Source: Sycon ciliatum
Taxonomy: Eukaryota; Porifera; Calcarea; Leucosolenida; Sycettidae
DNA: 64,000 nucleotides
NCBI RefSeq assembly: GCF_964019385.1
Contig: NC_088654.1
Location: forward strand, 18,152,287 to 18,216,286
Direction of reading: 5' to 3'
The position numbers and the translations under genes were made by a program. Positions 10,263-46,542 of the stretch are shown in pieces. The notes below the pieces were generated by a model. The model ran no database searches and was not told where the DNA came from. It worked only from the letters and a program-made list of their open reading frames with translations. The stretch's first letter is position 1. The number at the start of each line of letters is the position of its first letter.

Positions 10263-13200
10263 TTATGTGTACCTAATGTACAATGATGTGGTCGCTGCTA
10301 CACTGTCAAGTAACTGTACTAGGTGATCATTGACCAGATCTCGATCAGGCATTTCAAGCATCCGTAGCTCTCTAGATCTCCGGACAGCACTGGCAAAATG
10401 TGCAGACGTCTCGTTCACTGACAATCTGAAGTCATTGTCATCAATTCGAAGAACCATGAGGGTAGAGCATGAAGCAAGAATCTCTGCAAGTATGGCAAGA
10501 GACTGAGACGTAAGACCTGTGAACCCGAGAACCAACGAACGCAAATTCCTACACTTCTTGAGGCCCGGAGCAATGATGGACAGGAACATGTCGGACAGAG
10601 AATTTGCGTCCAACTCAAGCCTTTGCAGATAGCCACTATGTACACTGAGAACATGCCTGACTAACGGAGCACTAGATACTGTCAATCCAGCCTGGCACAA
10701 TCCAAAGCCACGAAGGGGTCTGCGGATCAACAGTGGAAAGAGCCACACTAGTCCCTGATCGTCAATGTAGAAGTGGAACATGGGACTAAGTAGTGGTCTG
10801 CAGTATGCTAGTAGAAAAAGAGCAATGAGAACATTGGTTTTGACCACCTGACACTTTGAACCACCAATGCGGATCGTAATCAGAGCAGAACACTGAGCTA
10901 GGGATGGAACTAACCGAGCATAACCTGACGATGATAGATCAAGGCCAGCTGCATGGAATTTCCCCAAACTGGCATTGTTTGCTCTGATTGTGTTGATTAG
11001 AGGGGTGGTTTGATGATCAGTAATGGGATTATAAGATATATCAAGCGAACGCAATCGTTGACAATGGCGAAGACCAGGTAATAGCTGCTCATAGTTCTCA
11101 TCATTGATCTGGCAATTCTGCACAGCGATATAATCAATGTGTTTGTTATGATGCTCCAAAACAGATGAGAGGAGGTGACAATCTGTTACAGTAAGAATAA
11201 TATTGTAGAAATCGAAGCCGAAATGTTCCAGAGCTTCTCCCAGACTGGGGGATGGCGAGAAGATACATGCTCCCTCTACTGTTTCTGTGTCGGTGCTGGG
11301 TGCACTGGGCTGGGCATAGACGCGGCAAGCAAGCAGTAACAACCGACGGTGAACTAGCGTGAAATGTTCCCTGGTACCATCTCTGGAGCTCAAGACAACC
11401 GTACCCTGAGTCTGCAGTACTGATCGATCACCACTAGAGTCAGTGTAAGAAGAAGTGTTGCTGGCTGTGGAGGGAGGTGAATTCGATGTATTTGTAGAAC
11501 AGTAAACGGGAGAAGCCAAAGGCTCTGAACATTTTGATTGGACGTACTCAAGAACAGCTCGCGATGCTGGCGGATGAAACTTGTTCAAGGCACCAGCGAG
11601 CATCTTTACGCTGGCACGTGGAACCTTGCGCCGCCAAAGCTGCAACAGTGCTCGCACATAGTCTAGAAGACACGAGCTAAAGGCGTTGGGGAGGGCATCA
11701 TCCATGGCCTGAGTGACAGTCTCACCAGTGGGCAGTAGATCAGTGAGAAGACACCTGGCCAGTGTATCAACTGAACCTTGGTCAAGGTGATCACACAACA
11801 CCTCGGCTACATCCACAAGATCATCCTCAGAGGAGCGAAGGAAGTGAATCACGTCGCGACCAGCCGACAGTTTCTCTATGTCGTCCTCCATGGGTACGGG
11901 CTGCGTGAGGATAGCGGCAATCAAGGCTTCTTTGACGTCAGGTGCAAGTTGTGAAGCGAGCAAGCACCAAAACGTGCTCAAGTGTCCAGTCAGTGCTCCC
12001 ACCTGCCTGACCAGGAACTCAATGTCACCAGCATTGGGACTGCTACATGCAATGTAATGAGAAGCAAGACATTCCTGAATGGAAAGATGGCTGAACTGCC
12101 ATTGGTTTACGCTAGGATAAGACAGTGGCTCACATGCCACCAGAAGACCCAGTGAACGTGCCTCCCCTGACAGCTGCTGTCCTTCAAGATCAGCATCAGT
12201 GAACAAGATCTTCTTCTCCACTAACATCAGAAATGCAAAATGGCCTAACTCAAGAATCTGCTCTCTCAGAACACGTCCAACGGATGACCAGTCCTTGTGG
12301 ACACTACCCGTGTTTTGTCTAATCACACTCAAGATCAAGGCGGTGAAGATACCGAACAGCGACGATGGAACCGAGCCACAACTACGATACACGTCACACG
12401 TCGACTGCGTGAAAAACGGTGTCTGCATCAAAGCTAACAAACTCGGATCGCCATCGACCTGCTCTAGCAAACACTCGGCCTGCTCGCATGGAAGGACATT
12501 GTTCACGTACTCGCGCACATTCTCCTTGGTGAATCCGAGTACTTCCACACGCCGATCAAACGGACACGACGTCGACAGTTTCATCACCTCCGCTGAGTGG
12601 CGAGACGTGAGAAGAATGCGGACGCCTTTCAGCTTTTCACCGCAGATAATGCCACGAACAAAATCACTACAGTCGTCGAGTACAGTTTCATCGAGTCCGT
12701 CAAACACGATCAAAAGACGATGTGGATTAGCATGGATGAACGCAGCTATTTCCTTTTGTTCCTGTTTATCAACAATGCCATGTTCCTCTAGTCTCAAGAG
12801 GTCAATGATATTGCTGGCGTGTCGAACACTCCTGTCACGCAATACCAATGCACTCACAACATCAAACTCATGCCAGATTACACCTCGTGCCCAGTCCAGT
12901 GGACCTTTCAACAAGAAAACAGTGGTTTTGCCTGCGCCCGCACATGCAACAGCCAACACACGGACTGACTCGTCTTCTGCCATTTCACTCTCGTCAAAAT
13001 CGAACATGCTGGCGAGTTCAACATGTGTCACCCTGTCGGCTACGCGTGAGAAGACATGGCTTAACTTCTGCATGTCGCTTTGCGAACCAAAGAACGTTTG
13101 CTCATTCAACGACGAGAGTTCTTCGCGAGGAACGACAACAAGATTTACATAGATCTTATCTAGAGAATGTTTGTTAGGTTTAGCAGACATACCCCTCCCC

Positions 13201-13451
13201 AGCTGTACCTTTGCACTTGTGTACTGCCTTCTCAGCATATCTGCAAACTGCTTCACAGCTTCGGGCAGCGAACGTCCGCACTCTCCAGAGGTAGTCGATG
13301 TATGGCCACGTCTTCCTGGTAGCGGTGCTTGGCAATGCCTGCTGTTGGCTTGTTGAACGTGAGAAAGCCCTGGCGATGCATCGGTGTCACATGTACTCTC
13401 TCCATGGCTGGCGACCGCCGGGCTGATTTCTTTTGCATTTCTCTCCGCCAT
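10263..13451 (-). CDS. NACHT-LRR (NLR) protein, copy A, intact
   Basis: One long exon encodes 1062 residues. The N-terminal 165 residues show no recognisable CARD, PYD or DEATH domain. The NACHT NTPase follows: Walker A ACAGAGKTT at about 169-177, Walker B LLIVFDGLDE at about 246-255, and a sensor-type LLTSRHS at about 280-286. A helical/winged-helix region ends in QWQFSHLSIQECLASHY, a motif shared by animal NLRs. A Ser/Thr-rich linker precedes RNase-inhibitor-type LRRs from about residue 770 to the C-terminus. Animal NLRs are cytoplasmic ligand sensors that oligomerise through NACHT; that role is inferred from family. The start is placed at MAERNAKE because homology with copies B and C collapses upstream of it. 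Another exon could follow, since the last codons overlap a weak donor-like AG|GTAC. Confidence 0.9.
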   Translation of the reverse strand: MAERNAKEISPAVASHGESTCDTDASPGLSHVQQANSRHCQAPLPGRRGHTSTTSGECGRSLPEAVKQFADMLRRQYTSAKVQLGRGMSAKPNKHSLDKIYVNLVVVPREELSSLNEQTFFGSQSDMQKLSHVFSRVADRVTHVELASMFDFDESEMAEDESVRVLAVACAGAGKTTVFLLKGPLDWARGVIWHEFDVVSALVLRDRSVRHASNIIDLLRLEEHGIVDKQEQKEIAAFIHANPHRLLIVFDGLDETVLDDCSDFVRGIICGEKLKGVRILLTSRHSAEVMKLSTSCPFDRRVEVLGFTKENVREYVNNVLPCEQAECLLEQVDGDPSLLALMQTPFFTQSTCDVYRSCGSVPSSLFGIFTALILSVIRQNTGSVHKDWSSVGRVLREQILELGHFAFLMLVEKKILFTDADLEGQQLSGEARSLGLLVACEPLSYPSVNQWQFSHLSIQECLASHYIACSSPNAGDIEFLVRQVGALTGHLSTFWCLLASQLAPDVKEALIAAILTQPVPMEDDIEKLSAGRDVIHFLRSSEDDLVDVAEVLCDHLDQGSVDTLARCLLTDLLPTGETVTQAMDDALPNAFSSCLLDYVRALLQLWRRKVPRASVKMLAGALNKFHPPASRAVLEYVQSKCSEPLASPVYCSTNTSNSPPSTASNTSSYTDSSGDRSVLQTQGTVVLSSRDGTREHFTLVHRRLLLLACRVYAQPSAPSTDTETVEGACIFSPSPSLGEALEHFGFDFYNIILTVTDCHLLSSVLEHHNKHIDYIAVQNCQINDENYEQLLPGLRHCQRLRSLDISYNPITDHQTTPLINTIRANNASLGKFHAAGLDLSSSGYARLVPSLAQCSALITIRIGGSKCQVVKTNVLIALFLLAYCRPLLSPMFHFYIDDQGLVWLFPLLIRRPLRGFGLCQAGLTVSSAPLVRHVLSVHSGYLQRLELDANSLSDMFLSIIAPGLKKCRNLRSLVLGFTGLTSQSLAILAEILASCSTLMVLRIDDNDFRLSVNETSAHFASAVRRSRELRMLEMPDRDLVNDHLVQLLDSVAATTSLYIRYT

Positions 13452-13827
13452 TGAAAACTCACGTGAACGGGAGAATCTTGTTTGAGAAGTGACTTTTCGG
13501 ATATTACGTGGCTACCCCTAGCCCGATCAATCACCACAGCTTGTGGGCTAGGGCGATCAGTTACTCGTTGCTAGAACTCAATACAACTGCTCGCAAACAT
13601 GACCCTCACTCTCTTTGTTGAAACACCTTAGACTGTAGCGTAGGTCCGGCGCTGTGTCCAAAATTTCCTGTTCTCCGTTTTGTAATATGCTTGCAAATGA
13701 TTGCAAAGCCCAACGCACTGGACGCACAGTGCAGTCCATGCAACCAGGAGCTGGAACTGCATGGAAATCTCACTCTGTTCACTGTGGACCTACGACTACG
13801 ATTGCTACGAACCAACCCGCGATATTC
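13452..13827. promoter_or_regulatory. 5' flank of NLR copy A
   Basis: This stretch shares blocks with the 5' flanks of copies B (30878-31330) and C (38963-39310), for example CAGCTTGTGGGC and TCCAAAATTTCCTGTT. It presumably carries the promoter and 5' UTR, but no TATA box or initiator could be assigned. Only its position and cross-copy conservation support the call. Confidence 0.4.
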
Positions 13828-14582
13828 ATGTTAAAACAAAATGGCGTCACGATTTATTGAAAGTGGTATAGTTGGTGGGACGAGTGTTCAAAACCATTTG
13901 AACTTCATACTGTTCGTCTTCTTTTTGACATGCTCTCTTTCCATCGTCCTTTGCTTTTGTTTGTTGTGAGCTGTTTTGGCTTTCTCCTGTACCTCTGGGG
14001 GATGCCAAGTGATGGTTTTGAGAGGCTGGTGATGGCTGTGAGCGAGAGTTTGCCGATCGGCGTCGTCCTCGCTGTAGCGATGAAAATACTAGTTACTGCG
14101 CACCTGGCAGATATCACAACACGTCGGAGCGTCCAGGAGCAAAGGAATCTTGGGTTTTCACTGGAATCTAGTTCCTCCAGCATCGTGTAGCCCACCGTCG
14201 GCGAATGGCGGTCCAGAAAGGTCGAACCTGGTCTTCTGCAGCATCTCGCAGTCCTGCGAGGCACACTGAATACGCCTGTCATGTATTCTACAAATAAAAA
14301 TCACGAAGTAGTGGACTTTATAGTGATGAGTCTATCCTGTATGCTGCAAAAGACACAGGAAATGTGACTGGTGTCTGTACACTCAGTGACTGGACGCCAA
14401 CACCCCAGTCTTCTCCTGCAGGATCTGTTTGACATTGACATTATGCAGTAGGTCGGCATTGACCTGGTTTGGCAGCTATCGTAATAGTATCTGCCTGGTT
14501 GGATGTAGCAGGTTGGCGTTTGCTCGTCGTCCAGTCCGGAATTTTCTTGTAACTCACGGTGGAGTACGTGCAGGGTTTGTGA
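13828..14582 (+). repeat. Left arm of long inverted repeat (about 755 bp)
   Basis: This arm matches the reverse complement of 19508-20251 with only scattered differences and small indels. It starts at TGTTAAAACAAAATGGCG. The plus strand holds an 86-codon frame (13930-14190) and the minus strand a 125-codon frame (13905-14282). Both frames are also open in the other arm. Neither product is recognised; the plus-strand product begins with a hydrophobic stretch (LLLFVVSCFGFLLYLWG). Confidence 0.85.
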
Positions 14583-19507: not shown

Positions 19508-20251
19508 CGAGCAAACCCTGCCGGTACTCCGCAGTTACAAGAAAATGTCGGACTGGACGACGCGCCAATGCAAACCTGCTACATCCAACCAGGCAGATAG
19601 CTGCCAAACCAGGCCAATGTCGACCCACTGCATACCGGTATGTCAATGTCAAACAGATCCTGCAGGAGAAGACTGGGATGATATTGGCGTCCAGTGTACG
19701 GACACCAGTCACATTTCCTGTGTCTTTTGCAGCATACAGGATAGACTCATCACTATAAAGTCCACTACTTCGTGATTTTTATTTGTGGAATACATGACAG
19801 GCGTATTCAGTGTGCCTCGCAGGACTGCGAGATGCTGCAGAAGACCAGGTTCGACCTTTCTGGACGGCCATTCACCGACGGTGGGCTACACGATGCTGGA
19901 GGAACTAGATTCCAGTGAAAACCCAAGATTCCTTTGCTCCTGGACGCTCCGACGTGTTGTGATATCTGCCAGGTGCGCAGTAACTAGTATTTTCATCGCT
20001 ATAGCGAGGACGACGCCGATCGGCAAACTCTCGCTCACAGCCATCACTAGCCTCTCAAAACCATCACTTGGCATCCCCCAGAGGTATAGGAGAAAGCCAA
20101 AACAGCTCTCAACAAACAAAAGCTAAGGACGATGGAAAGAGAGCATGTCAAAAAGAAGACGAACAGTATGAAGTTCAAATGGGTTTGAACACTCGTACCA
20201 CCAACTATACCACTTTCAATAAATCGTGACGCCATTTTGTTTTAACACGCA
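19508..20251 (-). repeat. Right arm of long inverted repeat (about 745 bp)
   Basis: Reverse complement of 13828-14582. It ends at ...CGCCATTTTGTTTTAACA. The hydrophobic-start frame is present here as 19886-20119 on the minus strand (77 codons) and the antisense frame as 19785-20126 on the plus strand. Confidence 0.85.
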
Positions 20252-21842
20252 TACGGTCCACTCCTACTACTACTGGCCCTAGCCAGACACAAGGATGGGC
20301 GGCTAGATCGGACTACATGTAGTACAGAGTATGCTGTAGCACGAATTGCACAGATTGCGACACATTAGTTTCTGCTGTAGAGATTTCCTTCAGCCTTTTT
20401 CAGGCTCAGCCGGGAGTATGCATGATCTACGTGGATGGGCTAGTGCTGAACCGCAAAGTGACAGCACATTCCACGACTGATAGCAGCATGCTAGCGCTAA
20501 CGACTTCTTTGCTGTGCGCGACAGAACTAGTCGACTGTAGACTTTCGCCATCACTTATAAGCTTAGTGTCAGTGATAAGTTTTTGCGCTGCTACATTTCA
20601 TTCAAACTCATCCAGTTGATTCCATACCTGGTCGAACGGACTTGTTTTTGTTCATGCAGTGCTGTTCCAATCGTGTGGCCATAGAAGATACTGATTCAAT
20701 GACACAGGTACAGTATTGAAGATTCAATGACTAAAAGCAAAAGCAAACTACATGTACTAGACTGAGCCAGTTTTGACATTTTTGTTTGGGATATTCTCAT
20801 TTCGCTGTATGATGGCCACATACACGTGCTGCCATTTGGAATGATGATAGCAAAGATTACAAGTATGATGGAGCCTCCCCTACCCGTGACTTTCACAACC
20901 ATGTAACGTGTCTGTACTTGGTAAGCGTGTTATCAAGATGTACACCGATGGAATCGTGGCTGATGCAACAAAGGCAATGAGTGTTCTCTCGCAAGGATAT
21001 TGAAGATTTCAATGTTGAGGACAGTAGATGTCCTGTGTCTTGCCATTTTTCTATCAACATACTCAAACATCCATTGCTGTGTGAGGGTCTTGCGTGTTCG
21101 CAAGTACAAGTACAAGTACAAGTACGTGTCATGATCGACATGACTGTAGTTAGTTGCATTCCAATCCCTACTAGACCCTAGCTACATCCGCAGTGCCATA
21201 CTGTCATCCCATAGCTCTGCTGTGTGCCACGTGCTGGTCTCCTACTTACCGGCGTAGGGTCTTTGGCAAATAAATTACTTGGAGTTTGACAGCCCCGAAG
21301 TAAATGAAAAAAATAATAGTGTATTATAGGAGACACCGCGTTCCCTAGTGTCGTCTCAGACGAACTGAGCAAAGCAGGACTGTGGCACTAAGATTTCAGG
21401 TGGTCCGGCTAAATGGGATGCAATCATCATGTGCAGTCGTGATCAAAGAAATCAGACTCAGCAGCCAAAAGCATCACCTCATTTTCATTTCAATAAACAC
21501 ATGTAATATCGAGAAAACAACAAGCAAGGGTGGCAGGGGCCGCTTTCAACTTGCACAGCAACACAAGAACTACTGGCGCTGGATAAAGAGACAATCTGCC
21601 GTTACATACCTATCCTCAGTGACAAAGTCAAAGGTACAGTACGGGAGGAATGCATCATGCATATCCCGTCTTGACCCTCATGCATTGTACAAGTATGCAC
21701 ATCATGACTGTACATCCGCAGCACGCATGCATCACTCCAGCTTGATTTGGTCGAACACCTCAGTCCTCAGTGACTGATGGGCTAGCAGCGTGCATCTGAA
21801 ATCCCTGGCAACTGGCAACTATGCAAACAAGACTGACAACTA

Positions 21843-24800
21843 CAGTAAAACCTGTGACTAACGACCACCCCTTGGGGCCAGAGAAAGCGGTCTTTGCTGG
21901 CAGGTGGTCCTTAGTCAGAGGTTTGCACCGCACAACCATAATGAATGTGAGACCGTCCGTGTCTGACGAACTGGTCTGTAGTACCAGGCTGGTCGCTAGT
22001 CACGGTGGTCTGTAGTATCAGGCTGGTCGCTAGTCACGGTGGTCTGTAGTATCAGGCTGGTCGCTAGTCACGGTGGTCTGTAGTATCAGGCTGGTCGCTA
22101 GTCACCGTGGTCTGTAGTATCAGGCTGGTCGCTAGTCACGGTGGTCTGTAGTATCAGGCTGGTCGCTAGTCACGGTGGTCTGTAGTATCAGGCCGGTCGC
22201 TAGTCACGGTGGTCTGTAGTATCAGGCTGGTCGCTAGTCACGGTGGTCTGTAGTACCAGGCTGGTCGCTAGTCACGGTGGTCTGTAGTATCAGGCTGGTC
22301 GCTAGTCACGGTGGTCTGTAGTATCAGGCTGGTCGCTAGTCACGGTGGTCTGTAGTACCAGGCTGGTCGCTAGTCACGGTGGTCTGTAGTACCAGGCTGG
22401 TCGCTAGTCACGGTGGTCTGTAGTACCAGGCTGGTCGCTAGTCACGGTGGTCTGTAGTACCAGGCTGGTCGCTAGTCACGGTGGTCTGTAGTACCAGGCT
22501 GGTCGCTAGTCACGGTGGTCTGTAGTACCAGGCTGGTCGCTAGTCACGGTGGTCTGTAGTACCAGGCTGGTCGCTAGTCACGGTGGTCTGTAGTACCAGG
22601 CTGGTCGCTAGTCACGGTGGTCTGTAGTACCAGGCTGGTCGCTAGTCACGGTGGTCTGTAGTACCAGGCTGGTCGCTAGTCACGGTGGTCTGTAGTACCA
22701 GGCTGGTCGCTAGTCACGGTGGTCTGTAGTACCAGGCTGGTCGCTAGTCACGGTGGTCTGTAGTACCAGGCTGGTCGCTAGTCACGGTGGTCTGTAGTAC
22801 CAGGCTGGTCGCTAGTCACGGTGGTCTGTAGTACCAGGCTGGTCGCTAGTCACGGTGGTCTGTAGTACCAGGCTGGTCGCTAGTCACGGTGGTCTGTAGT
22901 ACCAGGCTGGTCGCTAGTCACGGTGGTCTGTAGTATCAGGCTGGTCGCTAGTCACGGTGGTCTGTAGTACCAGGCTGGTCGCTAGTCACGGTGGTCTGTA
23001 GTACCAGGCTGGTCGCTAGTCACGGTGGTCTGTAGTACCAGGCTGGTCGCTAGTCACGGTGGTCTGTAGTATCAGGCTGGTCGCTAGTCATGGTGGTCTG
23101 TAGTACCAGGCTGGTCGCTAGTCACGGTGGTCTGTAGTATCAGGCTGGTCGCTAGTCACGGTGGTCTGTAGTATCAGGCTGGTCGCTAGTCACGGTGGTC
23201 TGTAGTATCAGGCTGGTCGCTAGTCACGGTGGTCTGTAGTATCAGGCTGGTCGCTAGTCACGGTGGTCTGTAGTATCAGGCCGGTCGCTAGTCACGGTGG
23301 TCTGTAGTACCAGGCTGGTCGCTAGTCACGGTGGTCTGTAGTACCAGGCTGGTCGCTAGTCACGGTGGTCTGTAGTACCAGGCTGGTCGCTAGTCACGGT
23401 GGTCTGTAGTATCAGGCTGGTCGCTAGTCACGGTGGTCTGTAGTACCAGGCTGGTCGCTAGTCACGGTGGTCTGTAGTACCAGGCTGGTCGCTAGTCACG
23501 GTGGTCTGTAGTACCAGGCTGGTCGCTAGTCACGGTGGTCTGTAGTATCAGGCTGGTCGCTAGTCACGGTGGTCTGTAGTACCAGGCTGGTCGCTAGTCA
23601 CGGTGGTCTGTAGTATCAGGCTGGTCGCTAGTCACGGTGGTCTGTAGTATCAGGCTGGTCGCTAGTCACGGTGGTCTGTAGTACCAGGCTGGTCGCTAGT
23701 CACGGTGGTCTGTAGTACCAGGCTGGTCGCTAGTCACGGTGGTCTGTAGTACCAGGCTGGTCGCTAGTCACGGTGGTCTGTAGTATCAGGCTGGTCGCTA
23801 GTCACGGTGGTCTGTAGTACCAGGCTGGTCGCTAGTCACGGTGGTCTGTAGTATCAGGCTGGTCGCTAGTCACGGTGGTCTGTAGTATCAGGCCGGTCGC
23901 TAGTCACGGTGGTCTGTAGTACCAGGCTGGTCGCTAGTCACGGTGGTCTGTAGTACCAGGCTGGTCGCTAGTCACGGTGGTCTGTAGTACCAGGCTGGTC
24001 GCTAGTCACGGTGGTCTGTAGTATCAGGCTGGTCGCTAGTCACGGTGGTCTGTAGTACCAGGCTGGTCGCTAGTCACGGTGGTCTGTAGTACCAGGCTGG
24101 TCGCTAGTCACGGTGGTCTGTAGTACCAGGCTGGTCGCTAGTCACGGTGGTCTGTAGTATCAGGCTGGTCGCTAGTCACGGTGGTCTGTAGTACCAGGCT
24201 GGTCGCTAGTCACGGTGGTCTGTAGTATCAGGCTGGTCGCTAGTCACGGTGGTCTGTAGTATCAGGCTGGTCGCTAGTCACGGTGGTCTGTAGTACCAGG
24301 CTGGTCGCTAGTCACGGTGGTCTGTAGTACCAGGCTGGTCGCTAGTCACGGTGGTCTGTAGTACCAGGCTGGTCGCTAGTCACGGTGGTCTGTAGTGTCA
24401 GGCTGGTGGCTAGTCACGGTGGTCTGTAGTACCAGGCTGGTCGCTAGTCACGGTGGTCTGTAGTATCAGGCTGGTCGCTAGTCACGGTGGTCTGTAGTAT
24501 CAGGCTGGTCGCTAGTCACGGTGGTCTGTAGTATCAGGCCGGTCGCTAGTCATGGTGGTCTGTAGTACCAGGCTGGTCGCTAGTCACGGTGGTCTGTAGT
24601 ACCAGGCTGGTCGCTAGTCACGGTGGTCTGTAGTACCAGGCTGGTCGCTAGTCACGGTGGTCTGTAGTATCAGGCTGGTCGCTAGTCACGGTGGTCTGTA
24701 GTACCAGGCTGGTCGCTAGTCACGGTGGTCTGTAGTACCAGGCTGGTCGCTAGTCACGGTGGTCTGTAGTACCAGGCTGGTCGCTAGTCACGGTGGTCTG

Positions 24801-25566
24801 TAGTACCAGGCTGGTCGCTAGTCACGGTGGTCTGTAGTACCAGGCTGGTCGCTAGTCACGGTGGTCTGTAGTACCAGGCTGGTCGCTAGTCACGGTGGTC
24901 TGTAGTACCAGGCTGGTCGCTAGTCACGGTGGTCTGTAGTACCAGGCTGGTCGCTAGTCACGGTGGTCTGTAGTACCAGGCTGGTCGCTAGTCACGGTGG
25001 TCTGTAGTACCAGGCTGGTCGCTAGTCACGGTGGTCTGTAGTACCAGGCTGGTCGCTAGTCACGGTGGTCTGTAGTACCAGGCTGGTCGCTAGTCACGGT
25101 GGTCTGTAGTACCAGGCTGGTCGCTAGTCACGGTGGTCTGTAGTACCAGGCTGGTCGCTAGTCACGGTGGTCTGTAGTACCAGGCTGGTCGCTAGTCACG
25201 GTGGTCTGTAGTACCAGGCTGGTCGCTAGTCACGGTGGTCTGTAGTACCAGGCTGGTCGCTAGTCACGGTGGTCTGTAGTACCAGGCTGGTCGCTAGTCA
25301 CGGTGGTCTGTAGTACCAGGCTGGTCGCTAGTCACGGTGGTCTGTAGTACCAGGCTGGTCGCTAGTCACGGTGGTCTGTAGTACCAGGCTGGTCGCTAGT
25401 CACGGTGGTCTGTAGTACCAGGCTGGTCGCTAGTCACGGTGGTCTGTAGTACCAGGCTGGTCGCTAGTCACGGTGGTCTGTAGTACCAGGCTGGTCGCTA
25501 GTCACGGTGGTCTGTAGTACCAGGCTGGTCGCTAGTCACGGTGGTCTTTAGTAACAGGTTTTACTG
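21843..25566 (+). mobile_element. TA-flanked MITE carrying a 105-unit satellite
   Basis: Termini CAGTAAAACCTGTGACTAAC and ...GTAACAGGTTTTACTG are inverted and flanked by TA on both sides, as for Tc1/mariner/pogo-type MITEs. The total is 3724 bp, which equals the 188-bp single-unit copy at 33128-33315 plus exactly 104 x 34 bp. It has no coding capacity. Transposition would need an outside transposase. Confidence 0.9.
21973..25542 (+). repeat. 34-bp satellite array, 105 units
   Basis: The unit GGTCTGTAGTAYCAGGCTGG + TCGCTAGTCACGGT repeats 105 times with no length change (3570 bp = 105 x 34). The main variant is a C/T at one position; rarer variants are GGCCGG, CATGG and GTGTC. Units after about 24.7 kb are almost all of the C type, while earlier ones mix C and T in recurring blocks. 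Confidence 0.97.
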
Positions 25567-25569
25567 TAC

Positions 25570-25785
25570 TGTAGACCGGGTAATTTTAGCGACGTAAAAA
25601 CCCTAGCGAATTTAGCGATCTACTCATTTTCGCTAAAGTTTCAAGTCGCTAATCCGTTGAGAAGTTAGTAGTGCACTGGCGATCCGTGAGTAAAATCGCT
25701 GCAAATTGCTAAAATAAAACGTCCCTAACCGGTTGACAATGAGAAAACGCTAAAATTAATAGTCGCTAAAATTACCCGTTCTACA
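25570..25785. mobile_element. MITE with TIR TGTAGACCGGGTAATTTTAG, copy 1
   Basis: About 216 bp with 24-bp inverted termini (TGTAGACCGGGTAATTTTAG... / ...CTAAAATTACCCGTTCTACA) and several internal CGCTAAA/TTTAGCG motifs. It abuts the satellite MITE with only a few bases between. The other duplicate carries the same pair of elements at 33319-33534, so both inserted before the segmental duplication. Confidence 0.8.
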
Positions 25786-26283
25786 CTATTGTGGGTGGCT
25801 ACAGTGGAGTATGTGCGTCTCCATAACTATAACGAATGACTATTAACCGTGAATGTATTTTAAGGCTACAGTGGAGTCTGAGCATATTGAGAAACGACTG
25901 ACAACTCATTGCACATTTGCAAGTCTTCAGGCCCAGCCTGCCTGCAATGACATCTATCGTGCTCTGCACCCAATCAGTACAGTGTGCAAGAGCAAGTCAA
26001 CAGGCAAAGCTGTGTGACGTCTAACCGTACAAGCATTTTCAGTATTTGTGCACACAAATGGAAAGTTTCTTATGCGATAAAGCATGCCAACCATACTAAC
26101 CCTGTCATATGCAGGATATAGGGGTGATGGAGGCTGGGTACATCCTGCCTGTACAGGCTGTCAGCGTACCTCCACACCTGACCAGGCTACAGGATAGGGC
26201 TCTACATACAACAAGGGACAAGTGTAATGACTAATGTACATGTAGCAATACCCAGTGGCAGTCATCAGCTGCTTGACTCTACC

Positions 26284-26440
26284 TCCCCCCACCCCCCCCC
26301 CCCCACACACACACTGCTCCACACCCCCCCCCCTTCCCATACACACACTGCTTCACCCCCCCCCCCCCCCTCACACACACACACTGCTCTACCCCACTAA
26401 TACCATCGTTCGGAACAACTCCCCCCCCCCCCCCCCTTTC
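26284..26440. repeat. poly-C and (CA)n cluster in NLR B flank
   Basis: Equivalent to 8810-8970 and 34329-34437. Confidence 0.9.
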
Positions 26441-27629
26441 GCCCATACCCCATATTCCCAATACATGCGCACCCGTCAACATAATCGTGGCTCAGCATCC
26501 AGCACTGATAATCGGCATACTGGACCTACGACCGGTTTGATATCCCGGGGCGGGCTTGGGGAGGGGGGGGGGGGGAGGGTTGAACTACTTCGAAGTATCC
26601 AAATACCCGAGACCGGGAAAGAGACATGCATGACTGTAATGGTAAGTGTTAACTATAGATAATGGTACATGTTGATTGACCATAGCACATGCACATTGCG
26701 GGTATCACTGGGAAATAGTTATGTACATCAAGCAACATACCGGTAACCATCTCAACTGAAATTCTACCACTGTTGCACACAGGTAATCCCAAGAGTGCAT
26801 AACCCCAAGTGAGTGTGCAACTGGGGTCTGGCTGCTGTAGCCTTCAGCAGTGGAATTCCAGTATAACGTCATGCCGCTGAAGCACAGCTGTACAAAACTC
26901 CGCATTCCGCGGTGCTTGCAGATAGTACTACAAGCGCAACGAGTGTGTACGTTATTTTTGACGTAATGTTGGAATTCCGCCTCACGGATCCCCATGTACA
27001 GAGTTGCACACTCTTGGGGTTATGGAGTGTTGGTAATACCACATTGCCAACTACATCACGATGCACGTCTTCATTCATCAAGATGAAATTATAGCCAACT
27101 TGCTGATACAATTGAGAGAAGTAGTGTGAACAGAAAACAAGATGCCGAATACAGACCCCGCATAGCAAATAGCAATGAAACAAATTTAAATCCCAGGAAA
27201 ACAAGCTGCAAAAGGCAGAATTCAACAGCGCGGATAATGGCATGCATTCACCACTAGCTAAATACCATGTCATGTGTGCCTGGAGAAATTATAACGATAG
27301 AGCATGACGAGTGTTCTCTCAAGCTGCTCAGCGGAGGCACTCAAGCTGCGGAAAATGGCGGCAATAAAATCAGCTGCTAAAATGTTCACAGCTGTCCTCG
27401 TACACACATTCATACTCACGCACACACTGCCCAAGCCTGCCCCAGGCTGGTACGCTATGAAAGCCGCGTGAAAGGGAAAGCGATCAAACACGACATAAGA
27501 GTTGATTAAGTTAAGTGTGTTTCGAGGAACGTTTACAGATTTCATAGCCTTGGTAGCAACGGAAGCCAGAGGCCACCGCTCTCAAGGCGCACAAGGCAAA
27601 AGTTAGACTGTTGTTTCGCGCATGCGTGC

Positions 27630-27668
<39 letters not shown>

Positions 27669-27680
27669 GGTGCCGCTTGG

Positions 27681-30600
27681 TCATACGTACCTAATGTACA
27701 ATGATGTGGTCGCTGCTACACTGTCAAGTAACCATACTAGGCGATCATTGACCAGATCTCGATCAGGCATGTCAAGAATGTGTAGCTCTCTGCATTCCTG
27801 GACAGCAATGACAAACTGTGCAGACATCTCGTTCGCTGACAATCTGAAGTCGTTGCCTTGAATACGAAGGGCATCTAAGACAGGGCATGAAGCAAGAATC
27901 TCTGCAAGTATGGCAAGAGACTGAGACGTAAGGCCTGTGAACGGAAGGCTCAACACACTCAGACTCCTACTCTTCTCGAGGCCTGGGGCAATGATGGACA
28001 GGAACATGTCGGACAGAGAATTTCCGCCCAACTCAAGCGCTTGCAGATAGTCACTATGTACACTCAGAACATCCCTGACTAACGGAGCACTTGAGACTGT
28101 CAATCCAGCCAGCGACAATCCAAAGCCACCGATGGGTCTGCGGATCAACAGTGGAAAGAGCCACACTAGTCCCTGATCACCAATGTAGAAGTGGAACATG
28201 GGACTATGTAGTGCTCTGCAGTATGCTAACAGAACCAGAGCAATGAGAACATTGGTTTTGACCACCTGACACTTTGAACCACCAATGCGGATAACAGTCA
28301 GAGCAGAACACTGAGCTAGGGATGGAACTAACCGTGCATACCCTGGCGAAGATAGGTCAAGGTCAACTGCAAGGAATTGCCCCAAACTGGCATTGTTTGC
28401 TCTGATTGTGTTGATTAGAAGGGTGGTTTGATGATCAGTAATGGGATTATAAGATATATCAACCACACGCAATCGTTGACAATGGCGAAGACCAGGTAAT
28501 AGCTGCTCATAGTTCTCATCATTGATCTGGCAATTCTGCACAGCGATATAATCAATGTGTTTGTTATGATGCTCCAAAACAGATGAGAGGAGGTGACAAT
28601 CTGTTACAGTAAGAATAATATTGTGGAAATCGAAGCCGAAATGTTCCAGCGCTTCTCCCAGACTGGGGGATGGCGAGAAGATACATACTCCCTCTACTGT
28701 TTCTGTGTCGGTGCTGGGTGCACTGGGCTGGGCATAGACGCGGCAAGCAAGCAGCAACAACCGACGGTGAACTAGCGTTAAATGTTCCCTGGTACCATCT
28801 CTGGAGGCCGAGCCATCCTTACCCTGAGTCTGCAGTACTGATCGATCACCACTAGAGTCAGTGTAAGAAGAAGTGTTGCTGGCTGTGGAGGGAGGTGAAT
28901 TCGATGTATTTGTAGAACAGTAAACGGGAGAAGCCAAAGGCTCTGAACAATTTGACTGGACGTACTCAAGAACAGCTCGCGATGCCGGCGGATGAAACTT
29001 GTTCAAGGCGCCAGCGAGCATCTTTACGCTGGCACGTGGAACCTTGCGCCGCCAAAGCTGCAACAGTGCTCGCACATAGTCTAGAAGACACGTGCTAAAG
29101 GCGTTGGGAAGAACCTGGTCCATGGCCTGAGTGACAGTCTCACTGGTGGGCAGTAGATCAGTGAGGAGACACCTGGCCAGTGTATCAACTGAACCTTGGT
29201 CAAGATGATCGCACAACACCTCGGCTACATCCACAAGTTCATCCTCAGACGAGCAAAGGAAGTGAATCACGTCGCCACCAGCCGACAGTTTCTCTATGTC
29301 CTCCTCCATGGGTACGGGCTGCGTGAGGATAGCAGCAATCAAGGCTTCTTTGACGTCAGGTGCCAGTTGTGAAGCCAGCAAGCACCAAAACGTGCTCAAG
29401 TGTCCAGTCAGTGCTCCCACCTGCCTGACCAGGAACTCAATGTCACCAGCATTGGGACTGCTACATGCAATGTAATGAGAAGCAAGACATTCCTGAATGG
29501 AAAGATGGCTGAACTGCCATTGGTTTACGCTAGGATAAGACAGTGGCTCACATGCCACCAGAAGACCCAGTGAACGTGCCTCCCCTGACAGCTGCTGTCC
29601 TTCAAGATCAGCATCAGTGAACAAGATCTTCTTCTCAACTAACATCAAAAATGCAAAATGGCTTAACTCAAGAATCTGCTCTCTCAGAACACGTCCAACG
29701 GATGACCAGTCCTTGTGGACACTACCCGTGTTTTGTCTAATCACACTCAAGATCAATGCGGTAAAGATACCGAACAGCGACGATGGAACCGAGCCACAAC
29801 TACGATACACGTCACACGTCGACTGCGTGAAAAACGGTGTCTGCATCAAAGCTAACAAACTCGGATCGCCATCGACCTGCTCTAGCAGACGCTCGGCCTG
29901 CTCGCACGGAAGGACATTGTTCACGTACTCGCGCACATTCCCCTTGGTGAATCCGAGTACTTCCACGCGCCGGTCAAACGGACACGATGTCGACAGTTTC
30001 ATCACCTCCGCTGAATGGCGAGATGTGAGAAGAACGCGAACGCCTTTCAGCTTTTCACCGCAGATAATGCCACGAACAAAATCACTACAGTCGTCGAGTA
30101 CAGTTTCATCGAGTCCATCGAACAGGATCAAAAGACGATATGGATTAGCATGGATGAACGCAGCTACTTCCTTTTGTTCCTGTTTATCAACAATGCCATG
30201 TTCCTCTAGTCTCAAGAGGTCAATGATATTGCTGGCGTGTCGAACACTCCTGTCACGCAATGCCAATGCACTCACAACATCAAACTCATGCCAGATTACA
30301 CCTCGTGCCCAGTCCAGTGGACCTTTCAACAAGAAAACAGTGGTTTTGCCTGCGCCCGCACACGCAACAGCCAATACACGGACTGACTCGTCTTCTGCCA
30401 TTTCGCTCTCGTCAAAATCAAACATACTAGCGAGTTCAACGTGTGTCACCCTGTCGGCTATGCGTGAGAAGACATGGCTCAACTAACTTACTTCTGCATG
30501 TCGCTTTGCGAACCAAAGAACGTTTGCTCATTCAACGACGAGAGCTCTTCGCGAGGAACGACAACAAGATTCACATAGATCTTATCTAGAGAATGTTTGT

Positions 30601-30877
30601 TAGGTTTAGCAGACATACCCCTCCCCAGCTGTACCTTTGCACTTGTGTACTGCCTTCTCAGCATATCCGCAAACTGATTCACAGCATCGGGCAGCGAACG
30701 TCCGCACTCTCCAGAGGAAGTCGATGTGTGGCCACGTCTTCCTGGTAGCGGTGCTTGGCAATGCCTGCTGTTGGCTTGTTGAACGTGAGAAAGCCCTGGC
30801 GATGCATCGGTGTTACATGTACTCTCTCCATGGCTGGCGACCGCCGGGCTGATTTCTTTTGCATTTCTCTCCGCCAT
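27681..30877 (-). pseudogene. NACHT-LRR copy B, broken by 8-nt insertion
   Basis: Same layout as copies A and C: N-terminal region, NACHT with Walker A AGAGKTT and Walker B FDGLDE, winged-helix-like motif FSHLSIQECLASHY, linker and LRRs ending ...SLYIRYV. The first 130 codons read from 30877 (MAERNAKE) to DMQK. An insertion of GTAAGTTA-like sequence at about 30483-30490, absent from A and C, then creates an immediate stop and a frameshift. A second open frame restarts at 30482 (933 residues) with NACHT and LRRs intact. It is therefore either a recent pseudogene or a form lacking the N-terminal 130 residues. It is closest to copy C in sequence and flanks. Confidence 0.8.
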
Positions 30878-31919
30878 TGAATGAAACCTCGGATGGATAG
30901 GAGAATCTTGTTTGAGAGGGACTAATGGGGCACTGAATAAGTGGCAACCCCTAGCCCGACAAATCACTACAGCTTGTGGGCCAGGGCGATCAGTTACTCG
31001 GTGTGAGAACTCAACTGCTTAATATAAATATTTCAATCGCTCTCTTTGTAGAAACACCCTAGCCTAGATCCGTCGCTTTGTCCAGAATGTTTTGTTCCCA
31101 GTTTTTTATGCTTTTACTTGTGGCTGCATACAATCGAATACAAGGCGCTACAGGCCAAGGCCAGGGCCAACACACTACGGCCCAGTCCATGCAACACTGC
31201 ATGCCACCACTGCCAACACTGCAACGCCAACAGGGAACACTGCAACAGGCCACAGCTTGAACAGGCCAGTACTACAGCCTAGGGTCAGTACTAGCTGGAC
31301 TGGTACTGCATGGAAATCTGTCACAGCCTACGAACCGACTTCTCGCCAGTGACAAGGGTAGTGGCTAGATCGAACTACACTCTACACTACAGACAGTGCT
31401 GGCAACTGAAATCCGACCACTGAGTGGTGCGCGGGCTAATTACATCGCAAAGACCCAACACGGGATGGTAAAACTATGAAATTGGGGACCGCTAGAATGT
31501 GAACCCACCGCTCAGGGGTCGGATTTCAGTTGCCAGCACTGTACAACGACATGTATACTGTAATGCACGCGACATGTTTTTGCTGTGGAGTTTTCCTTCA
31601 CTTCAGTTCAGGCTCAGCCAGGAGTATGAATGATCTACGGGGATGTGCCAGTGCTGAACCTCGGCAAAGTGCCAGCACAGACTCGTCCAACACTGCGACT
31701 TCTTTGCTGTGCGGGACACGACTACTACGAGTACTAGTAGTAGTGTACTACATTTTGTGTTACATGTAGTAGATGTCTACGAGTACTAGTACCTGTAGGT
31801 CTACTCGACTGACTGTAGACTTTTGTCACCACAGTCACCATGGTCACAGACTCAGTGTCGGTACAGGGATAAGGTTTCGCGCTACCACATTTCATTCAAA
31901 CTAATTCCATACCTGGTCG
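30878..31919. promoter_or_regulatory. 5' flank of NLR B and spacer to duplicate 2
   Basis: The first about 450 bp share blocks with the 5' flanks of A and C. The rest contains a short inverted pair (GCTGGCAACTGAAATCCGAC near 31402, and its complement near 31520) and TACTAGTAGTAG-type repeats near 31726-31792. No gene is seen. Confidence 0.4.
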
Positions 31920-33127
31920 AACGGACTTGTTTTTGTTCATATAAAGGATTAAGGTGTTGTTCCAATCGTGTGGCCATAGAAGATACTGATTCAATGACAC
32001 AGGTACAGTATTGAAGATTCAATGAATAAATGCAAACTACATGTACTAGTCTAGACTGAGCCAGTTTTGACATTTTTGTTCAGGATATTCTCATTTTGCT
32101 GTATGATGGACACATACACGTGCTGTAATTATTTGGAATGATGATAGCAAAGATTACAAGTATGATGGAGCCTCCCCTACCCGTGACTCTCACAACCATG
32201 TAACGTGTCTGTACTTGGTAAGCGTGTTATCAAGATGTACACCGATGGAATCGTGGCTGATCCAACAAAGGCAATGAGTGTTCTCTCGCAAGGATATTGA
32301 AGATTTCAATGTTGAGGACAGTAGATGTCCTGTGTCTTGCCATTTTTCTATCAACATACTCAAACATCCACTGCTGTGTGAGGGTCTTGGACTTGGGTGT
32401 TCGCAAGTACAAGTACGTGTCATGATCGACATGACAGTCTGTAGTTGCATTCCAATCCCTAGCTACATCCGCAGTGCCATACTGTCATCCCATAGCTCTG
32501 CTGTGTGCCACGTGCTGGTCTCCTACTTTACCGGCGTACTCGTAGGGTCTTTGGCAAATAAATTACTTGGAGTTTGACAGCCCCGAAGTAAAAAAACAAA
32601 ATAATAGTGTATACTACTATTATAGGAGACACAGTCCCCTAGTGTAGTATAGTGTCGTCTCAGACGAACTGAGCAAAGCAAGACTGTGGCACTGAGATTT
32701 CAGGTGGTCCGGCTAAAATGGGATGCAATCATCATGTGCAGTCGTGATCAAAGAAATCAGACTAAGCAGCCAAAAGCATCACCTCATTTTCATTTCAATA
32801 AACACATGCAATATCGAGAAAACAACAAGCAAGGGTGGCAGGGGCCGCTTTCAACTTGCACAGCAACACAAGAACTACCGGCGCTGGATAAAGAGGCAAT
32901 TTGCCGTTAGATACCTATCCTCAGTGACAAAGGTACAGTACGGGAGGGATGCATCATGTATGTCCCGTCTTGACCCTCATTTTACAACATGACTGTACAT
33001 CCGCAGCATGCATGCATCACTCCAGCTTGATTTGGTCGAACACCTCAGTCCTCAGTGACTGATGGGCTAGCAGCGTGCATGTGAAATCCCTGGCAACTGG
33101 CAACTATGCAAACAAGACTGACAACTA

Positions 33128-33315
33128 CAGTAAAACCTGTGACTAACGACCACCCCTTGGGGCCAGAGAAAGCGGTCTTTGCTGGCAGGTGGTCCTTAGT
33201 CAGAGGTTTGCACCGCACAACCATAATGAATGTGAGACCGTCCGTGTCTGACGAACTGGTCTGTAGTACCAGGCTGGTCGCTAGTCACGGTGGTCTTTAG
33301 TTACACGTTTTACTG
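33128..33315 (+). mobile_element. Satellite MITE, single-unit (188-bp) form
   Basis: Termini CAGTAAAACCTGTGACTAAC and ...GTTACACGTTTTACTG, with TA on both sides. It contains just one 34-bp unit (33258-33291). It occupies the same site as the 3724-bp element in duplicate 1, so it shows the unexpanded (or fully collapsed) state. Confidence 0.9.
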
Positions 33316-33318
33316 TAC

Positions 33319-33534
33319 TGTAGACCGGGTAATTTTAGCGACGTAAAAACCCTAGCGAATTTAGCGATCTACTCATTTTCGCTAAAGTTTCAAGTCGCTA
33401 ATCCGTTGAGAAGTTAGTAGTGCACTGGCGATCCGTGAGTAAAATCGCTGCAAATCGCTAAAATAAAACGTCCCTAACCGGTTGACAATGGGAAAACGCT
33501 AAAATTAATAGTCGCTAAAATTATCCGTTCTACA
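33319..33534. mobile_element. MITE with TIR TGTAGACCGGGTAATTTTAG, copy 2
   Basis: Paralogous copy of the element at 25570-25785, with the same adjacency to the satellite MITE. Confidence 0.8.
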
Positions 33535-33948
33535 GTATAGTGGATGGCTACAGTGGAGTATGTGCGTCTCCGTAACTATAACGGATGACTATAACCGCGA
33601 ATGTATTTTAAGGCTACAGTGGAGTCTGAGCATATTGAGAAACGACTGACAACTCATTGCACATTTGCAAGTCTTTTTAGGCCCAGCCTGCCTGCAATGA
33701 CATCTATCGTGCTCTGCACCCAATCAGTGTGCAAGTGCAAGTCACCAGGCAAAGCTGTATGACGTCTAACCGCACAAGCATTTTCAGTATTTGTGCACAC
33801 AAAATTTAGGAAGGTTGTCATGCGACAAAGCATGCCAACCATGCTAACCCTGTCACATGCAGGATATAGGGGTGATGGAGGCTGGGTACATCCTGCCTGT
33901 ACAGCGTACCTCCACACCTGACCAGGCTACAGGCTAGGGCTCTACATA

Positions 33949-34262
33949 CCGTATTATCTCTAATATAAGCACAGTCTCCCATCATAGCACGTCTCCAATA
34001 ATAGAACACCTTGGGGCGGCATTCAAAAAAATAAAGTGCTCACTCTCCATTACAAGCACACTGTGTAAATTCATTATCAGTACTGGCGAAATAACCCTGA
34101 AATGTGTGTGTCTGACATGAATTTGGCATGGCAACATGCCTCTGAAATGAGGTTGAAATAATAATGGAACAGTCTCCAATAAAGGAACGTCTCCATTAAC
34201 AGCACGGGGCGGAGGTAAATTGAAAAAATAAAGGACCGTGCTTATATTTAGAGATAATACGG
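33949..34262. mobile_element. 314-bp MITE with TIR CCGTATTATCTCTAATATAA
   Basis: Inverted termini CCGTATTATCTCTA... and ...TAGAGATAATACGG are flanked by TA. Duplicate 1 has the uninterrupted site (CTCTACATACAACAAGG near 26205), so this is a proven insertion with TA target duplication, younger than the segmental duplication. No coding capacity. Confidence 0.9.
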
Positions 34263-34328
34263 TACAACAAGGGACAAGTGTACACGTACAAGTAGCAATC
34301 AGTGGCAGTCATCAGCTGCTTGACTCTA

Positions 34329-34360
<32 letters not shown>

Positions 34361-34437
34361 GCTCCCCCTCCCCCAGACGCACACACTGCTCCACCCCACT
34401 AATACCATCGTTCGGAACAACTCCCCCCCCCCCCCCC
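34329..34437. repeat. poly-C and (CA)n cluster in NLR C flank
   Basis: Equivalent to 26284-26440. Confidence 0.9.
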
Positions 34438-35340
34438 TTCGCCCATAACCCATATTCCCAATACATGCGCACCCGTCAACATAATCGTGGCTCAGCATCC
34501 AGCACTGATAATCGGCATACTGGACCTACGACCGGTTTGATATCCCGGGGCGGGCTTGGGGAGGGGGGGGGGGGTGGAACTACTTCGAAGTATCCAAATA
34601 CCCGAGACCGGTAAAGAGACATGCATGACTGTAATGGTAAGTGTTAACTATAGATAATGGTACATGTTGATTGACCATAGCACATGCACATTGCGGGTAT
34701 CACTGGGAAATAGTTATGTACATCAAGTAAAAAACCGGTAACCATCTCAACTGAAATTCTACCAATGTTGCATATGGATAATACCAAGAGTGCATAACCC
34801 CTTCGCGAGTGTCCAACTGGGGTCTGGCTGCTGTAGGCCCACTGAGCGGCGGACTTCGAACATTACATCATGCCGCTGACAGAGGACAAAACTCCGCATT
34901 TCGCGGTGCTTGGAACCAGATAGTACTACAAGCGCAAAGAGGCGTGTACGTTAATTTTGACGTAATGTTGCAATTCCGCCGCGCGGATCCCCATGAACAG
35001 AGTTGCACACCCTTGGGGTTATGGAGTCTTGGTAATACCACATTGCCAACTACATCACGATTCACGTCTTCATTCATCAAGATGAAATTATTGCCAACTT
35101 GCTGATACAATTGAGAGAAGTAGTGTGAACAGAGAACAAGATGCCGAATACAGACCCCACGTAGCAAATAGCAATCAAACAAATTTAAATCCCATGAAAA
35201 CAAGCTGCAAAAGGCAGAATTCAACAGCGCGGATAATGGCATGCATACACCACTAGCTAAGTACCATGTAACGTGTGCCTGGAGAAGAGAATAACGATAG
35301 AGCATGACGAGTGTTCTCTCAAGCTGCTCAACGGAGGCAC

Positions 35341-35414
35341 TAAAAAAGTAAAGTAAATTATCGTATCCGTTCCCGAAGGGAACTCACGACGGCCGCTAAC
35401 ACCCGATAAACCCC
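35341..35414 (-). mobile_element. Short SINE-like insertion with 12-bp target duplication
   Basis: CAACGGAGGCAC occurs at both 35329-35340 and 35415-35426, and duplicate 1 has it once. The insert carries GTTCCCGAAGGGAAC, also present in the relative at 47640-47690, and ends in a low-complexity A/T tail. This is the signature of retroposition of a truncated short element. Confidence 0.75.
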
Positions 35415-35717
35415 CAACGGAGGCACTCAAGCTGCGGAAAACGGCGGCAATTAAATCAGTTGCTAAATTGTTCACAGCTGTCCTCGTACACCTATTCATA
35501 CTAACGCACACTGCTCAAGCCTGCCCCAGGCTGGTACGCTATGAAAGCCGCGTGAAAGGGAAAGCAATCAAACACGACATAAGAGTTGATTAAGTTAAGT
35601 GTGTTTCGAGGAACGTTTACAGATTTCATAGCCTTGGTGGCAACGGAAGCCAGAGGCCACCGCTCTCAAGGCGCACAAGGCAAAAGTTAGACTGTTGTTT
35701 CGCGCATGCGTGCGCAA

Positions 35718-35749
<32 letters not shown>

Positions 35750-35776
35750 ACACACACACGCACAGGTGCCGCTTGG

Positions 35777-38700
35777 TCATACGTACCTAATGTACAATGA
35801 TCTGGTCGCTGCTACACTGTCAAGTAACCGTACTAGGTGATCATTGACCAGATCTCGAGTAGGCATTTCAAGAAAGAGTAGCTCTCTGCATTCCCTGACA
35901 GCAATGACAAACTGTGCAGACATCTCATTCGCTGACAATCTGAAGTCGTTGTCATGAATACGAAGGGCATTGAGGACAGGGCATGAAGCAAGAATCTCTG
36001 CAAGTATGGCAAGAGACTGAGACGTAAGGCCTGTGAACGAAAGGCTCAACAGACACAGACTCCTACTCTTCTCGAGGCCTGGGGCAATGATGGACAGGAA
36101 CATGTCGGACAGAGAATTTGCGTCCAACTCGAGCAATTGCAGATAGTCACTATGTACACTGAGAACATCCCTGACTAACGGAGCACTAGATACTGTCAAT
36201 CCAGCCTGCGACAATCCAAAGCCATCAAGGGGTCTGCGGATCAACAGTGGAAAGAGCCACACTAGTCCCTGATCACCAATGTAGAACTGGAACATGGGAG
36301 TATATAGTGCTCTGCAGTATGCTAGTAGAACCAGAGCAATGAGAACATTGGTTTTGACCACCTGACACTTTGAACCACCAATCTGGATCACATTCAGAGC
36401 AGAACACTGAGCTAGGGATGGAACTAGCCATGCATACCGAGATGATGACAGATCAAGGCCAACTGCATGGAATTTCTCCAAACTGGCATTGTTTGCTCTG
36501 ATTGTGTTGATTAGAGGGGTGGTTTGATGATCAGTGATGAGATTATAAGATATATTAAGCACACGCAATCGTTGACAATGGCGAAGACCAGGTAATAGCT
36601 GCTCATAGTTCTCATCATTGATCTGGCAATTCTGCAGATTGATAAAATCAATGTGTTTGTTATGATACTCCAAAACAGATGAGAGGAGGTGACAATCTGC
36701 TACAGTAAGAATAATATTGCTGAAATCAAAGCCAAAATGTACCAGCGCTTCTCCCAGACTGGGGGATGGCGAGAAGATACATGCTCCCTCTACTGTTTCT
36801 GTGTCGGTGCTGGCTGCACGGGGCTGGGCATAGACACGACAAGCAAGCAGCAACAGCCGACGGTGAACCGGCATCAATGATTCCCTAACACCATCTCTGG
36901 AGCCCGAGCCAACCTTACCCTGAGTCTGCAGTACCGATCGATCACCACTAGAGCCAGTGTGAGAAGAAGTGTTGCTAGCTGTGGAGGTAGGTGACTTCGA
37001 TGTATTTGTAGAACAGTAAACGGGAGAAGCCAAAGGCTCTGAATATTTTGACTGGACATCCTCAAGAACAGCTCGCGATGCCGGCGGATGAAACTTGTTC
37101 AAGGCACCAGCGAGCATCTTTACGCTGGCGCGTGGCACCTTGCGCCGCCAAAGCTGCAACAGTGCTCGCACATAGTCTACAAGACACGTGCTAAAGGCGT
37201 TGGGAAGAACCTGGTCCATGGCCTGAGCGACAGTCTCACCAGTGGGCAGTAGATCAGTGAGAAGGCACCTGGCCAGTGTATCAACTGAACCTTGGTCAAG
37301 ATGATCGCACAACACCTCGGCTACGTCCACAAGATCATCCTCAGAGGAGCGAAGAAAGTGAATCACGTCGCGACCAGCCGACAGTTTCTCTATGTCGTCC
37401 TCCAAAGGTACGGGCTGCGTGAGGATAGCGGCAATCAAGGCTTCTTTGACGTCAGGTGCAAGTTGTGAAGCGAGCAAGCACCAAAACGTGCTCAAGTGTC
37501 CAGTCAGTGCTCCCACCTGCCTGACCAGGAACTCAATGTCACCAGCATTGGGACTGCTACATGCAATGTAATGAGAAGCAAGACATTCCTGAATGGAAAG
37601 ATGGCTGAACTGCCATTGGTTCACGCTAGGATAAAACAGTGGCTCACATGCCACCAGAAGACCCAGTGAACGTGCCTCCCCTGACAGCTGCTGTCCTTCA
37701 AGATCAGCATCAGTGAACAAGATCTTCTTCTCAACTAACATCAAAAATGCAAAATGGCCTAACTCAAGAATCTGCTCTCTCAGAACACGTCCAACGGATG
37801 ACCAGTCCTTGTGGACACTACCCGTGTTTTGTCTAATCACACTCAAAATCAAAGCCGTGAAGATACCGAACAGCGACGATGGAACCGAGCCACAACTACG
37901 ATACACGTCACACGTCGACTGCGTGAAAAACGGTGTCTGCATCAAAGCTAACAAACTCGGATCGCCATCGACCTGCTCTAGCAAACGCTCGGCCTGCTCG
38001 CATGGAAGGACATTGTTCACGTACTCGCGCACATTCTTCTTGGTGAATCCGAGTACTTCCACTCGCCGATCAAACGGACACGACGTCGACAGTTTCATCA
38101 CCTCCGCTGAATGGCGAGACGTGAGAAGAACGCGGACGCCTTTCAGCTTTTCACCGCAGATTATGCCACGAACAAAATCACTACAGTCGTCGAGTACAGT
38201 TTCATCGAGTCCATCAAACACGATCAAAAGACGATGTGGATTAGCATGGATGAACGCAGCTATTTCCTTTTGTTCCTGTTTATCAACAATGCCATGTTCC
38301 TCTAGTCTCAAGAGGTCAATGATATTGCTGGCGTGTCGAACACTCCTGTCACGCAATGCCAATGCACTCACAACATCAAACTCATGCCAGATTACACCTC
38401 GTGCCCAGTCCAGTGGACCTTTCAACAAGAAAACAGTGGTTTTGCCTGCGCCCGCACATGCAACAGCCAACACACGGACTGACTCGTCTTCCGCCATTTC
38501 ACTCTCGTCAAAATCAAACATACTGGCGAGTTCAACATGTGTCACCCTGTCGGCTACGCGTGAGAAGACATGGCTTAACTTCTGCATGTCATTCTGTGAA
38601 CCAAAGAACGTTTGCTCATTCAACGACGAGAGTTCTTCGCGAGGAACGACAACAAGATTCACATAGATCTTATCTAGAGAATGTTTGTTAGGTTTAGCAG

Positions 38701-45863: not shown

Positions 45864-46542
45864 TACTACCTGGGATTCGAACCCGCACTATCGCCCTACA
45901 TGCATTCCCCCATACACTTCGCATTCATACTCATTCTTCCAAGTACAGTAACACAGTTAGTTGCTTCACGTTATGATCTTGCGCATGCGTTTGAAAGCCC
46001 TATTTTGTTGAATATTGCGGCCAGCTGTGTTTGATTGTACGGTACGGTACGGGACATATACGGGATAGCGCCAGGCGTGACACAAACAAACACCAAATTA
46101 ATTAAAGCTGTGTGGACACTGGCTAGCGCCAGACGTTACTGAAGTAACGTCTTCTGCATAGCTACGGGAATTAAAACAAAATAAAGTAAAGAGAACGGAC
46201 CTATTATTTAAGTATATTAAAAGGGGCCGTCCGTAAATATCGATATTTTTCTCAAGACGATGTATTTTGTTCGTGTCTCCCCGGACCCCCTCCCTCCCCC
46301 CTCAAAACGAACATACACACGTTCATGCAGAGAATCGATTTCTTTTAAAAGGACGAGACGAACAGGGACCAAACCCCCTCTAGCTCTCCCCCCAAACGAA
46401 CGAACATCTTCTCTAAAAAAAATGTTGGTATTTGTGGACGACAACTACTTGAAGTTACTAGTTATGACTAACAGTCCACCAAGGTAACGAGATCTTGTAC
46501 TTATACAGTCAGATAGTGCGACAACAAGGCACACAACTGACC

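Follow-up and report, generated by a model that had tools for sequence, protein, structure and literature searches.

One MITE-like insertion with 1 and 105 internal units in duplicated segments of a calcareous sponge genome

How can mobile elements built on one plan come to hold 1, 31 or 105 copies of the same internal unit? The question is raised by a window of 64,000 nucleotides on contig NC_088654.1 of the calcareous sponge Sycon ciliatum. An earlier note on this DNA had described three TA-flanked elements with these numbers of a 34-bp unit, and their presence is confirmed. Their coordinates, lengths and flanks all hold on rechecking the sequence, a TA dinucleotide stands on both sides of all three, and the proposed length rule, 188 + 34 x (n-1), is exact, yielding 188, 1208 and 3724 bp for n = 1, 31 and 105. 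These elements and a divergent relative are as follows.

Element A, 21843-25566, plus strand: MITE-like and TA-flanked, 3724 bp, 105 units; delimited by TRF, unit listing and ends
Element S, 33128-33315, plus strand: the insertion of A in the other duplicated segment, 188 bp, 1 unit; delimited by sequence and flank homology to A
Element C, 50079-51286, minus strand: an independent insertion, 1208 bp, 31 units; delimited by TRF, ends and flanks
Element D, 62649-62822, plus strand: a divergent relative of the same plan, 174 bp, one 33-bp unit

Plan of the elements and source of the unit

Elements A, S and C begin and end with CAGTAA...TTACTG between TA dinucleotides, and their 27-bp terminal inverted repeats are matched at 25/27, 24/27 and 24/27 positions, respectively. 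The TA on either side is that of Tc1/mariner-type MITEs, and the sizes of S (188 bp) and D (174 bp) fall in the MITE range, with A and C longer only through their arrays. No stop-to-stop open reading frame of 150 or more amino acids overlaps any of the four. In A, S and C alike the 34-bp units stand between a 129-bp head and a 25-bp right end; those of A occupy 21972-25541, and the single unit of S lies at 33257-33290. In both A and C the array occupies only the right side of the element. The termini and unique parts had been called identical in all three, which is true of the left parts of A and S (head plus first unit, 163/163) but not of C, whose head agrees with the head and first unit of A at 144/159 positions, with 4-bp indels that cancel in length by chance. 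Nor is it true of the right ends, since A and S disagree at two bases of their final 25 bp, each having one private base relative to C near its right TA.

The unit has a recognizable source within the element. It is a dimer (18 + 16 bases) of a 17-bp motif that recurs in the terminal repeats, where it makes up their inner part. In the left repeat this part, read inward on the other strand, is TGGTCGTTAGTCACAGG, and in the right repeat of C it is TGGTCTTTAGTTACAGG. When aligned without gaps, the left-repeat motif agrees with the unit at 14/17 positions at best, in both A and C, a figure equalled by 1 of 20,000 base-shuffled units of A and 3 of 20,000 of C. With this motif in common, unit and right end already amount to short direct repeats.

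Element D has its parts in the same order: left end, two 17-bp motifs, a spacer bearing the shared GTCCGTG, one 33-bp motif dimer (62766-62798) and right end. It is identical to S at 110/171 aligned positions; against C, cut down to a single unit, the figure is 114/169. Its left flank is TA and its right flank GA, the right TA having been lost; with this flank and ends matched at only 13/27 positions (ungapped), D is evidently old. The one-unit plan is likely the ancestral state, judged from D as a single distant outgroup that is ~64% identical.

The CENP-B box has been linked to pogo ends (PMC6947457). A scan for the box, allowing up to 1 mismatch, found no box in the unit and 6 matches in the whole window, against 6.96 expected. 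In each of A and S, one such match lies close to the first unit, on its left. The reading as a pogo/Tigger element with a CENP-B box in its unit was rejected, as no box was found there.

One insertion in two duplicated segments

Elements A and S lie in a direct duplication that carries NACHT-domain genes, with the following parts.

20570-31150, unstranded: duplicated segment with A and a broken NACHT-gene copy (break at ~30482-30488), from self-comparison, open reading frames and the NACHT domain
31864-39258, unstranded: sister duplicated segment with S and a NACHT-gene copy, from self-comparison, alignment and the NACHT domain
10263-13511, 27681-31018 and 35777-39028, minus strand: three tandem NACHT-domain gene copies, recognized by the NACHT domain, the middle one being the broken copy

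The 20 bases on each side of the element are the same in A and S, the left flanks are identical at 1151/1223 aligned positions and the right flanks at 606/629, and the homology runs on into the NACHT genes. Since both flanks are homologous, A and S are one insertion that was copied together with its host segment, and separate transposition of the two is ruled out. The flanks of C are unrelated to those of A and S. The subfamily is therefore represented in the window by two insertions (A/S and C), along with D, and not by three dispersed seeds. This alters the suggestion of the earlier note that an element with a seed unit able to amplify in place would spread such seeds: unit number does change inside intact ends, but A and S became siblings by segmental duplication and not by transposition. 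A history in which each of the three moved independently, bringing its array with it, is extremely improbable. The unrelated flanks of C are in keeping with it, and C may have arrived either bearing its array or lacking it, but A and S have more than 1.2 kb of common flank to their left and 0.6 kb to their right, and the likeness extends into the NACHT genes.

The same genes bear on whether the assembly can be trusted here. Elements A and S might represent both haplotypes of a single locus, put in tandem by the assembly, or the lengths of the arrays, which are given throughout as assembled, might be wrong; the window does contain a 200-N gap, at 58801-59000. However, the three NACHT paralogues are about equidistant (3068/3248 between the first copy and that beside A, 3054/3246 between the first and that beside S, 3078/3251 between the latter two), unlike two alleles and one paralogue. 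We consider an artefact very unlikely, and in the two-allele case the contrast of 1 and 105 units at one site would still stand. The counts of shared sites among the three paralogues (86, 75 and 93) look mosaic, as though the copies had exchanged sequence. The paralogue at 10263-13511, viewed as a possible empty site, has no element and no clean junction; it matches the flanks weakly, at three places (68-80% over 40-143 columns).

Several other features of the window were recorded. A search with the first NACHT protein gave at least 173 matches at E <=0.001 among 7991 candidates scored; among the matches listed, the best is 91% identical, and the best of those bearing a species name are from Sycon ciliatum, at 58%. 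Directly right of A (25567-25796) and of S (33316-33545), and so in both duplicates, is a palindromic MITE-like stretch (GACCGGGTAATTTTAGCGAC ... GTCGCTAAAATTAYCCGTTCTACA). The stretch that separates the first NACHT copy from the second is flanked by an inverted repeat of ~750 bp (13823-14579 / 19512-20253, 92.5%), and a 1242-aa open reading frame at 40573-44301 on the minus strand has a borderline match to reverse transcriptase (PF00078, at the cut-off). A 34-bp period (13.4 copies) occurs in an unrelated array at 48687-49138 too, where a higher-order period of 169 bp overlies it. The window is rich in tandem repeats, and further minisatellites lie at 46542-46765, 54309-54450, 54525-54853 and 57282-57415, with periods of 45, 44, 46 and 63 bp. 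Within 400 bp of these five other arrays (45, 34, 44, 46 and 63 bp), no convincing inverted-repeat frame was found, the best being 9-12 bp, and a MITE frame is thus no common property of the tandem arrays here.

Probable growth of the arrays and its direction

By TRF, the array of A spans 21972-25558 (105.5 copies, 98% matches) and that of C 50093-51156 (31.3 copies, 95% matches), and both are far from chance expectation. Mean pairwise identity between units is 98.2% in A and 94.9% in C, so that each is a homogeneous head-to-tail array of the satellite kind, and the 3.6-kb array of A, within a gene cluster, is of minisatellite size. There are 7 unit types in A, where 73 of the 105 units have one sequence, and 12 in C, where one sequence accounts for 14 of 31. 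The two arrays have different private variants: at unit base 7, a G stands in 105/105 units of A and in that of S but in 0/31 units of C, and at base 13 a G stands in 21/31 units of C and 0/105 of A. With no private variant common to A and C, the arrays must have grown, or been homogenised, separately after the insertions parted. A pattern of 16 units in A returns 18 units further on, with a score reached by 3 of 300 random orderings, as expected from multi-unit duplication; the same test on C was not significant, 259 of 1000 orderings being as good.

The history that we think probable starts with a one-unit TA-type MITE whose unit was amplified in place, in C and, after the duplication, in A. 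A non-autonomous Tc1/mariner-type element with terminal inverted repeats and a TA target would have carried one 34-bp motif-dimer unit beside its right terminal repeat, and the unit and right end, acting as short direct repeats, would have made this stretch prone to slippage and unequal exchange. Unit number would have risen to 31 within the C insertion; the A/S insertion would have been copied with the NACHT-gene segment, after which one duplicate would have reached 105 units, the other having one. The elements would presumably have been mobilised by a transposase encoded elsewhere in the genome, and the autonomous partner is predicted to end in CAGTAAAACCTGT and to have TA targets. No transposase, clean empty site or further copy was seen within the 64,000-nt window.

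The direction from one unit to many is favoured because D has one unit and because the diversity of the A array is low. The opposite course, in which the ancestral A/S insertion had a long array and S was reduced to one unit by a direct-repeat deletion after the duplication, is possible but clearly the less probable. Such a deletion would leave S exactly as it is, with a unit that matches both the first and the commonest unit of A letter for letter, and the private bases in the right ends of A and S make neither obviously the older. The single unit of D and the low diversity of the A array speak against contraction, but neither is decisive.

For amplification in place, the flanks provide a timescale. 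Divergence between the duplicated segments amounts to 4.8% (314 of 6585 aligned positions), and units of A differ by a mean of 1.8% per site, or 0.5% without one C/T site, so the array reads as young, although homogenisation by exchange also gives old arrays a young appearance. The element and its near flanks are the least diverged 374 columns of the A-S alignment, with 2 differences; so few were found anywhere in only 0.02% of 5000 shuffles (p 0.0002), a test that presumes an even rate along a segment in which other conserved stretches are present. The pattern suggests that A and S exchanged sequence over the element not long ago, by gene conversion or a similar process. The diversity of the A array (1.8%) exceeds the A-S difference over the element (2/374), and at face value the array would predate that exchange. 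We read the data to mean that A grew once this exchange had taken place, which fits only if the single C/T site was spread by amplification.

The 188-bp element folds better than 200/200 shuffles (z -4.07), but the hairpin is confined to its left 82 bases and the array stretches are unremarkable (z -1.54, -0.26 and 0.32), so that hairpin-driven amplification was rejected. A further, doubtful idea is that the satellite is an amplified transposase-binding site, the 17-bp inner motif having been doubled to 34 bp and then multiplied next to one end. A long array would then be a row of predicted sites for a transposase, perhaps a domesticated one, and jumps in unit number would be driven by exchange that takes place between paralogous insertions and centres on the element.

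Relation to known satellite-bearing elements

Arguments for transposon-born satellites mostly compare insertions at different places. Here one insertion in two duplicates has 1 and 105 units, and unit number has therefore changed where the element stands, with no transposition involved. At ~4.8% divergence, the flanks serve as a clock, the one-unit relative D suggests the direction of change, and the derivation of the unit from the terminal motif of the element itself accounts for the presence of a seed for amplification. The first steps of array growth would thus become datable at one locus.

Searches for earlier records of this element returned little. The terminal pattern had 0 matches in prokaryote genome contigs and viral contigs, which says little for an animal element, and a literature search with the terminal letters brought up papers that, judged by title or the start of the abstract, are unrelated. 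Among sponge papers no such case was apparent from title or the start of the abstract, which is a weak kind of absence.

The principle is already known from Xenopus miDNA4 and Xstir and from Drosophila Tetris, and the new merit of this locus is the clean contrast at one insertion. According to a review, miDNA4 (Scalvenzi and Pollet, via PMC12628747) is a Tc1/mariner MITE whose internal satellite monomer is single or arrayed, much as the internal unit of the present TA-type MITE is single in S and arrayed in A and C. The miDNA4 monomer is proposed there to have been captured, with AT-rich microhomology around it, whereas the present unit comes from the element's own terminal motif, a comparison made by description. 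Xstir, in the same review, is a MITE/satellite case of MITE-derived tandem repeats (PMC12628747), for which terminal inverted repeats are listed as source in another (PMC9659126); the latter gives terminal repeats as a common source of such repeat units. Two neighbouring elements are the proposed origin of Xstir, and nothing here requires that. The BrickBuilt elements of Porphyromonas gingivalis are described as having (PMC4596501) a 23-bp minisatellite between MITE leader and tail, and so resemble the present ones, by description, in having a minisatellite inside a MITE, although they are bacterial. In the Tetris/TIR-220 system of Drosophila virilis (PMC4079207), alleles of one copy were reported to differ in repeat number (3 and 4), and arrays reach 66 units. 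As in Tetris, the unit here derives from a terminal repeat and unit number differs at one insertion. Tetris is of the foldback type, its repeats lying in both of its ends and its target duplications measuring 8-10 bp, and the sponge element does not belong to such a foldback class, as its tandem repeats are on the right side only; its unit is 34 bp, its target is TA and the contrast at its one insertion is between 1 and 105 units.
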